Shown in pieces: positions 48,309 to 52,953 of a stretch of 52,978 nucleotides of DNA. Made by a program: the position numbers and the translations under genes. The DNA comes from Bacteroidales bacterium. Its GTDB lineage: Bacteria > Bacteroidota > Bacteroidia > Bacteroidales > F082. Under the pieces are notes generated by a model, which ran no database searches, was not told the origin of the DNA, and worked only from the letters and a program-made list of their open reading frames with translations. Position 1 is the first letter of the stretch; the number at the start of each line of letters is the position of its first letter. Location: positions 1-52,978 of the forward strand of contig WGDP01000056.1 in assembly GCA_015493215.1 (NCBI GenBank), in the 5' to 3' direction.

Positions 48309-48722
48309 ATGAAGTCACACGTTTCGCTTGAAGTCCAATGTCCGTTTTGCATGAAATCATTTATGTGTGAAGAGCACAAGTTGCACCATTTTCCCAGCAT
48401 CAAATTAAATGTAATGACCCCAAAGCAGAGAGGAACCATTCATCTGTGTTCGGTTTACGAATGTTTTGATCACTATTCGGATATTGACATCCCCGACAAA
48501 ACCATTGTTGAGTTTACCTGCCCCCATTGCAACAAAGAGCTATTGGTAAAAGAGGAGTGTAAAATTTGTGGCGCCCCCATGGTTTCGCTGACTTTAAAAA
48601 CGGGAGGCCGGGTAAACATTTGTTCACGCAAGGGCTGCTCAAATCACTATGTGGCTTTTGAAGACCTTAACAGCGAACTGCTTAGCTTTTACGAAAAATT
48701 TAAATATGGACATCACAAATAA
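48309..48722 (+). CDS. Small multi-zinc-ribbon protein, unknown function
   Basis: CPFCMKSFMC, CPHCNKELLVKEECKICGAP, CSRKGCSNHY. Confidence 0.7.
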   Translation: MKSHVSLEVQCPFCMKSFMCEEHKLHHFPSIKLNVMTPKQRGTIHLCSVYECFDHYSDIDIPDKTIVEFTCPHCNKELLVKEECKICGAPMVSLTLKTGGRVNICSRKGCSNHYVAFEDLNSELLSFYEKFKYGHHK

Positions 48723-48747: not shown

Positions 48748-49644
48748 CTACAACAAGTTAGCATCAAAAGCACTATATTTCTCTCTTATTTTAAATGCTC
48801 CGGCGTTAACAATTGTGCCATCTTTAAACAGCAAATCAGCAGGCTCAAAAACCTCTTCTATCATCCAGCGCGAACGGTTAATAATCTCATCCGATACCTC
48901 TTTTGTTCGCTGAAAAACAGTTGCAGGCTTGTTTTCGAGTTTTTGACTTATCAGCATCCAAACGGACTGCATAATTTCAGCAGGTTCATACCCACTGATA
49001 ACAACTCCTTTATTATAGGTGAGTGAAATTGATGAATAGGCACCCGGTCCCGTGTTTAATCCCACCTTCAAAGGAATTATAAAACCATCAATGTTATGTT
49101 TGCCGGAGGCCAGTGCTTTAATAATACCCGGCATTTGACAATGCTGCTGAAACACAAAAAAGTTTCTAAACCCAACGGTTTTTGCTTTAGCCAACCCTGC
49201 CGCCGTTACCAGGGCTTCATCTTCGTATCCTGTAATGGCATACAACACTTTGTTCCGGCGTTTTTTTGATGCCACCACCATGGCACCGAGAATATCATCA
49301 ACAATTCTGATGTCAGCGCCGGACTCCATCTGATCCTTAAGGTTTGATTGCGAACCCGGTAAGGATAAATAGTGCTCTTTAATGGTAAGAATAGCCTTTT
49401 CCGATTTGGAAAAATCAATCATCCTGTCCACAAAATCCGTGTCCTCACAAAATAAACCAAAATCCGTTTCGCTCTTCAACGAAATCCAATCGGGCAACCA
49501 ATCCTCCAATTCATATTTTTGCACTATATTCCTTAAGTCGGCACCCGGCATCAAAATTGTAAAAGGCTCTGCCTCAACATCGTTTATCAACGAAGCAAAA
49601 TGTTTTACCACATCGCGGTCTATGTAATTTTCCGGTAAACTCAT
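48748..49644 (-). CDS. HypD-like protein lacking catalytic cysteine motifs (putative pseudoenzyme)
   Basis: LSLPGSQSNLKDQMESGADIRIVDDILGAMVVASKKRRNKVLYAITGYEDEA...NFFVFQQHCQMPGIIKALASGKHNIDGFIIP...VVISGYEPAEIMQSVWMLISQKLE...NAGAFKIREKYSAFDA aligns with HypD; start moved to MSLPENYIDRD. Confidence 0.8.
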   Translation of the reverse strand: MSLPENYIDRDVVKHFASLINDVEAEPFTILMPGADLRNIVQKYELEDWLPDWISLKSETDFGLFCEDTDFVDRMIDFSKSEKAILTIKEHYLSLPGSQSNLKDQMESGADIRIVDDILGAMVVASKKRRNKVLYAITGYEDEALVTAAGLAKAKTVGFRNFFVFQQHCQMPGIIKALASGKHNIDGFIIPLKVGLNTGPGAYSSISLTYNKGVVISGYEPAEIMQSVWMLISQKLENKPATVFQRTKEVSDEIINRSRWMIEEVFEPADLLFKDGTIVNAGAFKIREKYSAFDANLL

Positions 49645-49784
49645 TATATAACAATTTACATCCCCTACTCTATCGGGCACAAAATTAACCCTTTTATACT
49701 TGTCAAAAAAACATCTGCACCTTAATATCGAAGTTGTTTATAAGACTAATTCAAATCAATTTATATTGTTTCTAAATTTTATAT

Positions 49785-49802
49785 CTGTTAAAACTTTAAC
49801 AG
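49785..49802. promoter_or_regulatory. Candidate operator CTGTTAAA-AC-TTTAACAG upstream of hox operon
   Basis: 8-2-8 perfect inverted repeat ending 10 bp before a TATATTTG -7 box (49813-49820). Confidence 0.5.
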
Positions 49803-49820: not shown

Positions 49821-49875
49821 CTGTGAAATTATTAACAAATAGAAATGCCCATTAATTTTAATAAAACATAACGTT

Positions 49876-51690
49876 ATGCAAGACCTCATAACCAAAATAG
49901 TTAAGCGCTATCAGAGCGACAAAACCCGGCTGATGGATATACTGATGGATATCCAAACCGAGCGTGGTAACTTGTCGCGCGACGATTGCGGCCGGCTGGC
50001 ACAAAAACTTAAAATGTCAACGGCAGAAGTTTGTGAAACAGCCAGCTTCTATCATTTTTTAACCTGCAAAGAGGCTCAGTATAAGATTTATCTTAACAAC
50101 AGCATCACCTCCGAAATGGCAGGGCGTAAAATAGTTGCCGAAGCATTTGAAAAGGCATGTAACACATCATTTGGAGAAGTATCTGACGATGGGATGTTTT
50201 TTCTGGAGCATACCTCCTGCATCGGGATGAACGATCAGGAGCCTGCTGCACTTGTCAATGGCGTACCATTTACACAACTAACTCCTTACCGGGTTAAGGA
50301 GTTGATTACCGAATTGAAAAAAGGAAAATCACCCAAAGAAGCCATGTATGAAGCGCTTGGCGACGGCAGAAACAGTAACAACCTTATTCATAGCATGGTA
50401 AACAACCACATCAGAAAAAGAGGAGCAATTCTCACCAATGACTACCAACCTTTTGAAGTGGTAAAAACCAAACTTTGCGAACGCTCACCCGAAGAGATAA
50501 TCACCATAGTAGAAGGTTCCAACATTCGCGGTCGTGGCGGTGCAGGTTTTCCTACCGGGTTAAAATGGAAGTTTGGCCGGCTAACCAAAGCCGAACACCG
50601 GGTTATAATTTGTAATGCCGATGAAGGAGAACCCGGAACATTTAAAGACAGGGTGTTGCTTACCGAATTTCCTGAACTGGTATTTGAGGGCATGCTAATA
50701 GCTGCCTTTGCCACAGGTGCCGACATTGGTGTTTTGTACCTGCGCCATGAGTATAAATATCTGCTTAACTATCTCAACAGCATTTTGGAAAAGATGCGTA
50801 AAGATGAATTGTTGGGCAACAAAATAAACGGATGTAAGCACTTCAATTTTGATATCCGCATTCAACTCGGTGCTGGTGCCTATGTATGTGGTGAGGAGTC
50901 GGCCTTAATTGAATCGATGGAAGGAAAACGGGGAGAACCTCGCGACAAACCGCCATTCCCTGTGGAAAAGGGTTATTTGGGATATCCAACCATTGTTAAC
51001 AATGTGGAAACGCTGGCATCGGTGGTAAAAATTATTAAAAATGGTGCCGCCTGGTTCGATAATATGGGCACTTCCGATTCGGCCGGGACAAAAATTCTTA
51101 GCATTTCGGGCGACTGTCTCCATCCGGGTATTTACGAAGTGGAATGGGGCACCACCGTAAGAGAAGTTCTTGACATGGCAGGAGCTTACGATGTTCAGGC
51201 AATTCAGGTGGGCGGACCGTCGGGTATCCTGCTTTCCGAAAAAAGTTTTGACCGAACCTTAAGTTATTCCGACCTCGCCACCGGAGGCTCCATGATTATT
51301 TTTAACCACTCACGTGATATTCTGCGCGAGGTAGTTTTAAACTTTATGGACTTCTTTATCGAAGAATCGTGTGGCTCTTGTTCTACCTGCCGAATTATGC
51401 CAGTGGTGTTAAAAAACAAACTGCAAAAAATATTAAACGGACATGGCGTAAAACAAGATTTGGAAGATCTTGCTTCGTGGGGAAAACTTTTAAAAATCAG
51501 TCGTTGCGGACTTGGGCAAACAGCAGGCAATCCTGTGTTAACCAGCCTGGCCAACTTTAGAAAACTGTATGAAAACTTAATACAGCAGGATAAGGAGTTC
51601 GACACGGGCTTTGATTTGGAGAAAGCTGTGGTTGAGTCGTGCAATTTTGTGAATCGCAAACCGGTTTTAGAAACAAAAAATTTGAATTAA
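49876..51690 (+). CDS. hoxF: NAD-reducing [NiFe]-hydrogenase diaphorase subunit HoxF (with NuoE-like N-terminal domain)
   Basis: RYQSDKTRLMDILMDIQTERG...ETASFYHFLTCK, RGRGGAGFPTGLKWKFG, ICNADEGEPGTFKDRVLL, GAGAYVCGEESALIESMEGKRG, ESCGSCSTCR; close in layout to Ralstonia SH HoxF. Confidence 0.93.
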   Translation: MQDLITKIVKRYQSDKTRLMDILMDIQTERGNLSRDDCGRLAQKLKMSTAEVCETASFYHFLTCKEAQYKIYLNNSITSEMAGRKIVAEAFEKACNTSFGEVSDDGMFFLEHTSCIGMNDQEPAALVNGVPFTQLTPYRVKELITELKKGKSPKEAMYEALGDGRNSNNLIHSMVNNHIRKRGAILTNDYQPFEVVKTKLCERSPEEIITIVEGSNIRGRGGAGFPTGLKWKFGRLTKAEHRVIICNADEGEPGTFKDRVLLTEFPELVFEGMLIAAFATGADIGVLYLRHEYKYLLNYLNSILEKMRKDELLGNKINGCKHFNFDIRIQLGAGAYVCGEESALIESMEGKRGEPRDKPPFPVEKGYLGYPTIVNNVETLASVVKIIKNGAAWFDNMGTSDSAGTKILSISGDCLHPGIYEVEWGTTVREVLDMAGAYDVQAIQVGGPSGILLSEKSFDRTLSYSDLATGGSMIIFNHSRDILREVVLNFMDFFIEESCGSCSTCRIMPVVLKNKLQKILNGHGVKQDLEDLASWGKLLKISRCGLGQTAGNPVLTSLANFRKLYENLIQQDKEFDTGFDLEKAVVESCNFVNRKPVLETKNLN

Positions 51691-51691
51691 A

Positions 51692-52387
51692 ATGGCTGAT
51701 ACAATTAAAATAAAAATCGACGGTAAAGAAATCGTAACATCAAAAGGGAAAACCATACTGGAGGCAGCAACCGACAACAATGTTTATATTCCCACACTTT
51801 GCCATTTCCCCGGGGTACCTCCCAAAGGCTCATGTCGCATTTGTACCGTAAAAGTCAACAACAGGTTTATGACCTCCTGCTCCACACCTGCAGCCGACGG
51901 CATGACCATTAACAACAATCACGATGAAATTCTGGACTTCCGGAAAAGCATTGTAGAGCTACTTTTTGTGAGCGGCAATCACTTTTGCCCTGCCTGCGAA
52001 AAAAGTGGTAACTGTGAGCTTCAGGCGCTGGCATACCGACTGGGCATGTTGGTACCACGGTTTCCGTTTTTATTCCCTAAAAAAATGGTGGACGCCTCCA
52101 GCCCAAAAATTATTAAGGAGCAAAACAGATGCGTTTATTGCAAACGTTGTATAAAAACCATTAAGGACAAAGAGGGCAGACACTATTTTGCCTTTAACAA
52201 CCGTGGCAACAAACTGGAAGTTGTTTTAGACAAACAAATGGGAAACACCATTTCCGACAAACTGGCCCAACAAGCCATGGATAACTGCCCGGTAGGCTCT
52301 ATTATCTATAAAGGAAGAGGATTTTCGCAGCCCATAGGGACAAGAAAATATGACAAGGAACCCATTGGCAGCAACATTGAAGATTAA
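51692..52387 (+). CDS. hoxU: Hydrogenase diaphorase Fe-S subunit HoxU
   Basis: IPTLCHFPGVPPKGSCRICTVKVNNRFMTSC, HFCPACEKSGNCELQALAYRLGM, CVYCKRCIKTIKDKEG. Confidence 0.92.
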   Translation: MADTIKIKIDGKEIVTSKGKTILEAATDNNVYIPTLCHFPGVPPKGSCRICTVKVNNRFMTSCSTPAADGMTINNNHDEILDFRKSIVELLFVSGNHFCPACEKSGNCELQALAYRLGMLVPRFPFLFPKKMVDASSPKIIKEQNRCVYCKRCIKTIKDKEGRHYFAFNNRGNKLEVVLDKQMGNTISDKLAQQAMDNCPVGSIIYKGRGFSQPIGTRKYDKEPIGSNIED

Positions 52388-52404: not shown

Positions 52405-52953
52405 ATGGAAAAAAAAGTAATAGCTACCACCTCATTGGCAGGATGTTTCGGTTGCCACATGTCGTTTTTAGACATCGACGAAAGACTGCTTGATTTAATA
52501 GAACTGGTAGAATTTAACAAATCGCCCATTGACGACATTAAAAAGTTTACCAAACCTGTTGACATTGGCATTATCGAAGGCGGTTGTGCCAACAGCGAAA
52601 ATGTGGAAGTATTAAAATATTTTAGGGAGAACTGTAAAATTCTTGTTTCGTTGGGCGAATGTGCCATTATGGGCGGGCTTCCGGCCATGCGCAACGGAAT
52701 TCCCATCGACGAATGTATTGAGGAGGCCTATCTGAACGGCCCCACGGTACAGCTGAACAAGGAAAAGATTTTACCCAACGACGATGAGATACCCATGTTG
52801 TTAGACCGTGTGGTACCTTGCCATGAAGTGGTAAAAATTGATTATTTCCTTCCGGGTTGTGCACCTCGTGCCGATCTAATTTGGGACGCGCTGGTAGCCA
52901 TTGTTACAGGCAAAGAAATGGACTTGCCGTACGAAGTTGTAAAATTTGATTAA
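52405..52953 (+). CDS. hoxY: [NiFe]-hydrogenase small subunit HoxY
   Basis: TTSLAGCFGCHMSFLDIDERLLDL, DIGIIEGGCANSENVEVLKYFRENCKILVSLGECAIMGGLPAMRN, FLPGCAPRADLIWDAL. Confidence 0.93.
   Translation: MEKKVIATTSLAGCFGCHMSFLDIDERLLDLIELVEFNKSPIDDIKKFTKPVDIGIIEGGCANSENVEVLKYFRENCKILVSLGECAIMGGLPAMRNGIPIDECIEEAYLNGPTVQLNKEKILPNDDEIPMLLDRVVPCHEVVKIDYFLPGCAPRADLIWDALVAIVTGKEMDLPYEVVKFD

Follow-up and report, generated by a model that had tools for sequence, protein, structure and literature searches.

How could a homologue of the maturation protein HypD in which all known functional residues are replaced have come to stand beside a hydrogenase operon, and what might it do there? The question arises from a 52,978-nucleotide stretch of a Bacteroidales genome (the window), in which an open reading frame on the minus strand (48748..49644) encodes a 298-residue protein, here termed the disarmed HypD homologue, that is without the catalytic cysteines, the Fe–S domain and the pocket residues of HypD. 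The frame is intact from its ATG at 49644 to its stop at 48748, and the coordinates, strand and quoted peptides of a first-pass annotation of this DNA proved correct. The homology to HypD claimed there was also well founded: the Pfam HypD family (PF01924; cut-off 25 bits) matched with 143.3 bits (E value 1.3e-41) over profile positions 31–289 of 351, and a profile of the five sequences from the genus aligned with one built from 12 canonical HypDs (hhalign) at a probability of 100% over 300 columns. Among solved structures, HypD of Thermococcus kodakarensis was the sole significant match. The NCBIfam hypD model TIGR00075, for which the equivalog cut-off is 192.8, gave a lower score of 143.8 bits, and a structure prediction from three sequences reached a mean pLDDT of 36. 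A defence-system identity for the gene was considered and dropped, as no match was found, and a search of viral contigs yielded no further usable homologues.

When the disarmed protein was aligned with the HypDs of related genomes (58 canonical sequences), all known functional HypD residues were seen to be substituted. The Fe-binding Cys41 of CGGHT(H), a cysteine in 58 of 58 canonical rows, falls in GADL in the window protein and is variable in its relatives, and at the thiol–disulfide pair Cys69/Cys72 of GPGCPVC the five sequences of the genus share no conserved cysteine at all. The equivalent of D98 (E. coli numbering) is H, Q, H, E and K in the five proteins, GFETT has become GYEDE, and GHVS reads LKVG or LKTG. 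The C-terminal [4Fe-4S] domain with its four cysteines and Glu357 are absent, the protein stopping at about HypD position 300. The five sequences contain 2, 0, 0, 1 and 0 cysteines, none of them conserved; the two in the window protein are residues 66 and 169, and the single cysteine of one relative is unrelated. The alignment thus bears out the loss of CGGHTH, GPGCPVC, GHVS and the Fe–S tail first proposed from the window alone. A frameshift or sequencing error, correction of which might have restored the motifs, is ruled out, the same intact, cysteine-poor frame being found in all five genomes. In E. coli HypD, exchanging C69, C72 or the Fe–S cysteines abolishes hydrogenase activity, and exchanges in GFETT alone have little effect (PMC9900092); interaction with HypE requires D98 (PMC12130793); and the modelled surroundings of the Fe(CN)2CO group comprise C41, H44, C69, F147, T149, H201, F227 and E357 (PMC11565642). 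Loss of the known HypD chemistry from the disarmed protein is as good as established.

The surroundings of the gene are those of a hydrogenase locus. A gap of 231 bp, earlier given as about 0.2 kb, separates it from the divergent hoxF (49876..51690, plus strand), which encodes the diaphorase subunit of an NAD-linked hydrogenase with a fused HoxE-like domain. There follow on the same strand hoxU (51692..52387) and hoxY, for the hydrogenase small subunit (52405..52953), and then, on contig C164, hoxH, hoxW and a dihydroorotate-dehydrogenase-like gene (dhod). On the other side lies a convergent gene for a 137-residue zinc-ribbon-like protein (48309..48722, plus strand), which in sister genera comes after hypE. 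The sister-genus locus reads dhod-hoxW-hoxH-hoxY-hoxU-hoxF, divergent from hypF-hypC-hypD-hypE and then the convergent zinc-ribbon gene (in a few loci one gene was undetected or lay outside the stretch read). Within the genus, the disarmed hypD alone is divergent from hoxF, and hypF, hypC and hypE are missing there; the zinc-ribbon gene adjoins it in the window and in genomes G001 and G002. Two of these neighbours recur throughout the family. The zinc-ribbon-like protein (133–137 residues; no Pfam family at cut-off) is consistently encoded, in convergent orientation, next to hypE or the disarmed hypD (L027, L030, L034 and others), and the dhod gene, a member of the PRK07565 subfamily, comes after hoxW in the hox operons (L093:2119-3102, L030, L034, L036). 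In one genome, G011, the HoxH match (G011:C68:34860-36297) is broken by several in-frame stops and frame changes, reflecting either a decayed gene or an assembly error.

The proposed linkage to hox held in part. It was seen in the window's genome (G000), G002 and G004, which are all three genomes whose contigs can show it; in G001, both relevant contigs end between hox and the disarmed gene. The G003 member is unlinked: in this genome (98% complete) the gene lies beside an lptF-like gene and the native hox operon is absent, the hydrogenases remaining being a different NAD-linked [NiFe] hydrogenase and one represented by a large subunit that is more distant. The second-type hox operon of G003 encodes HoxU and HoxY in one 421-residue frame and is divergent from hypF-hypD-hypE (L023:3565-4830). 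At least one group-3-type [NiFe] hydrogenase is present in all five genomes of the genus. The earlier label 'group 3d' was not confirmed, no curated model of the large subunit having reached its cut-off and the best, VhuA, scoring far below it.

Synteny identifies the disarmed gene as the descendant of the hypD that is linked to hox in the sister genera. Of 40 alignment columns by which sister-genus HypD can be told apart from the canonical HypD of the genus itself, the disarmed sequences agree with the sister type at 21, with their own canonical type at 2 and with neither at 17. A tree constrained to join the disarmed proteins to sister-genus HypD had a log-likelihood 2.4 above that of the free tree (p-AU 0.58), and one joining them to their own canonical HypD was 10.1 lower (p-AU 0.23). 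An origin as a copy of the genus's own canonical hypD is therefore disfavoured by the diagnostic columns (21 to 2) and by synteny, without formal rejection at that p-AU. Because the branch leading to the disarmed clade is very long, the tree alone is weak, and it is synteny that carries the argument.

As the first-pass annotation had proposed checking, a canonical hypD exists elsewhere in the window's genome (G000:C145). Such a gene, of another lineage, is present in four of the five genomes, and in a tree its product clusters, at full support, with HypDs from the order's other families. Searches with sister-genus HypF and HypE found no more than a single full-length set in any genome, and that of the other type (35–38% and 46–49% identity); in G002, which is 77% complete, neither hypE nor a canonical hypD was found. 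HypC occurs once, besides a contig-end overlap in G000, where an odd match that had suggested a cysteine-less HypC partner turned out to be a gene cut by the contig end.

We next consider whether the disarmed gene is a functionless relic of the lost hypFCDE cassette in slow decay. Such a reading would account for the loss of all active-site residues together with the Fe–S domain, and for a dN/dS about six times that of canonical hypD in the same genome pair (0.116 versus 0.019, G000–G001). Against it, the frame is intact in all five genomes (G000–G004), the four other copies being 91, 62, 62 and 50% identical to that of the window; dN/dS stays near 0.12 (0.128 for G002–G004); a block of 60 residues contains 46 invariant positions; and the gene has been retained in the different context of G003. 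The disarmed gene is clearly under purifying selection, though less strongly so than canonical hypD. Its dN/dS and conservation disfavour a pseudogene, and we regard a useless relic as very unlikely and strongly disfavoured.

The gene is confined to one genus of uncultured Bacteroidales in the genomes searched: genomes from the family (174), the order (394, sampled) and the phylum (398) yielded no member outside it, and scores fell from 520–582 bits for genus members to at most 223 in these genomes. Cysteines are kept in the 29 best matches that the order yielded beyond this family and in those canonical copies of the family that were inspected. As to the suggested survey of the cysteine-less clade against hox operons, co-occurrence is limited to this one genus; many other hox-carrying relatives are without the gene. 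The sample of members comprises five genomes of a single genus, mostly fragmented assemblies. We found no description of a cysteine-less HypD in the literature searched, which covered few subscription journals.

Constraint within the protein is inverted relative to canonical HypD. The segment that held CGGHTH and GPGCPVC (residues 30–68; codons 49441..49557, minus strand) is the least conserved today, and the most conserved is residues 109–168 (codons 49141..49320, minus strand), in which GYEDE replaces the GFETT of HypD. Between G003 and the other four genomes, identity is 22% in the former and 84% in the latter, compared with 63% and 54% (5–95% range 45–62% for the second) across 417 pairs of canonical HypDs that have diverged overall to a similar degree. 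Invariant columns number 46 of 60 in residues 109–168, across five species, and 118 of 294 overall (hypergeometric P 1e-10, assuming independent columns and for a segment picked after the alignment was seen). Newly invariant residues include KRRNKV, GYEDE and PLKxGLNTG. Constraint has moved from residues 30–68 to 109–168, and the conservation pattern is that of a changed function rather than of decay.

This shift, with its new invariant residues, would also suit a protein neofunctionalised outside hydrogenase biology, the Rossmann-like half binding a metabolite or nucleotide and the adjacency to hoxF being merely historical. The survival of the G003 gene, unlinked beside an lptF-like gene and without a native hox operon, points the same way, as does the sign of a promoter of its own: the element TAATTTTG, resembling the Bacteroidota -7 box, lies at 49680..49687 on the minus strand, 43 to 36 bases before the ATG, and is found upstream of the gene in G000, G001, G002 and G004 and is absent in G003. 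We take this box to be a probable promoter element. The group-3-type [NiFe] hydrogenase in each of the five genomes and the fact that at least three species still have the gene at the hox promoter region speak against such a role, which we consider the chief alternative, possible but rather doubtful.

The remainder of the divergent region suggests redox control. Two inverted repeats of the form TGTKAA-N4-TTMACA occupy the 231-bp gap, TGTTAAAACTTTAACA at 49786..49801 and TGTGAAATTATTAACA at 49822..49837, the second immediately upstream of hoxF; they are the window's only exact copies (0.03 expected, for a pattern picked after the sequence was seen). They resemble the Rex operator, TTGTGAA-W4-TTCACAA (PMC2883068). 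With one mismatch allowed, such repeats recur at a near-identical position in each of the 14 sister loci, as well as in G002 and G004, one locus having one and the others two, and genes with a Rex-type N-terminal domain were present in all eight genomes checked. Across the family, the tandem Rex-like repeats stand about 35 bp apart in the hoxF/hyp divergent region (for example, L030 and L041). Rex probably controls this region, and the tandem arrangement suggests NADH-responsive control of the hydrogenase. Proximity to a redox-type operator region would fit a competitive regulator that binds HypC or HypE unproductively and so throttles maturation by the second hyp set, as would a HypD-like length retained through both Rossmann-like domains. 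Substitution of D98, needed for the HypE interaction in E. coli, and the lack of conservation in the HypC-facing cleft residues around C41 argue against it, and we consider such a regulator unlikely.

Together, these observations lead us to favour, at about even chances, a hypD that a second hyp set rendered redundant and that was retained as a non-catalytic protein, probably a hydrogenase-related scaffold or regulator. Its origin is plain: the ancestor was an ordinary hypD, inherited vertically in place, in a hypF-hypC-hypD-hypE cassette that diverged from the hox operon in orientation. A second hyp set, related only distantly to the first, is present in the genus today and can make the Fe(CN)2CO group; by comparison with sister genera, the native hypF, hypC and hypE have gone and hypD has shed its redox chemistry and Fe–S domain, in an order that we can only infer. 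The protein has not decayed: its second Rossmann-like half has become the constrained part, with KRRNKV, GYEDE and PLKxGLNTG newly invariant. The product most likely acts by binding, without catalysis, in the biogenesis or control of hydrogenase; it may, for instance, hold the apo-large subunit or a chaperone of the HypC type, or sense a nucleotide in a remodelled cleft. We prefer a hydrogenase accessory because of where the gene came from and where it lies, and because each of the five genomes has a [NiFe] hydrogenase; against this, the G003 copy has been retained away from hox, in a genome that has no native hox operon. The first-pass description of a HypD-fold, non-catalytic hydrogenase accessory accordingly stands as to homology and loss of catalysis, and, as one member is not hox-linked, its hydrogenase-related function is one that we infer.

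More tentatively, and short of probable, the HypD cleft for Fe(CN)2CO and ATP may have been rebuilt around GYEDE, KRRNKV and PLKxGLNTG into a ligand-binding or signalling protein after the second hyp set took over. If so, the locus would document an in-place pseudoenzyme transition in metallocofactor assembly. HypD is regarded as fully cysteine-dependent, and here a natural lineage that has lost all of these cysteines keeps the remaining protein under selection, offering a route to separating HypD chemistry from other roles of the fold. It would also be an unusually clear record of one maturation cassette displaced by another, with a single gene left and repurposed. For annotation, a Pfam HypD match does not imply a maturase.

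Among known systems, a HypD-like paralogue in genus g3 (L035, L104) is another divergent HypD-type gene within the same bacterial family; unlike the disarmed gene, it has CSGY, GCxAC and the Fe–S cysteines, with no GHVS, and adjoins an FAD-linked oxidase rather than hox. It lies (L035:8963-10039, L104:6356-7441) beside genes for this oxidase (about 995 residues) and a lipoate-ligase-like protein, and in G021 a g3-type paralogue is the only HypD-like gene, no HoxH-type large subunit having been detected there. Compared with HypD itself (TIGR00075, PF01924), the disarmed protein is homologous across both Rossmann-like domains, has a hox-linked gene position and retains P51, G97, D111, R113, G139, E141, N161, H168, G218 and E220 among others, but is without CGGHTH, CPVC, D98, GFETT, GHVS, the Fe–S cysteines and about 60 C-terminal residues, and its gene is without adjoining hypC, hypE and hypF. 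The hox-linked HypDs of the sister genera (L027, L030, L034 and others) differ in being about 360 residues long, in having all functional residues and in lying within a hypF-hypC-hypD-hypE cassette, but they share with the disarmed homologue the divergence from hoxF, the zinc-ribbon neighbour, the operator-like repeats and 31–36% sequence identity.
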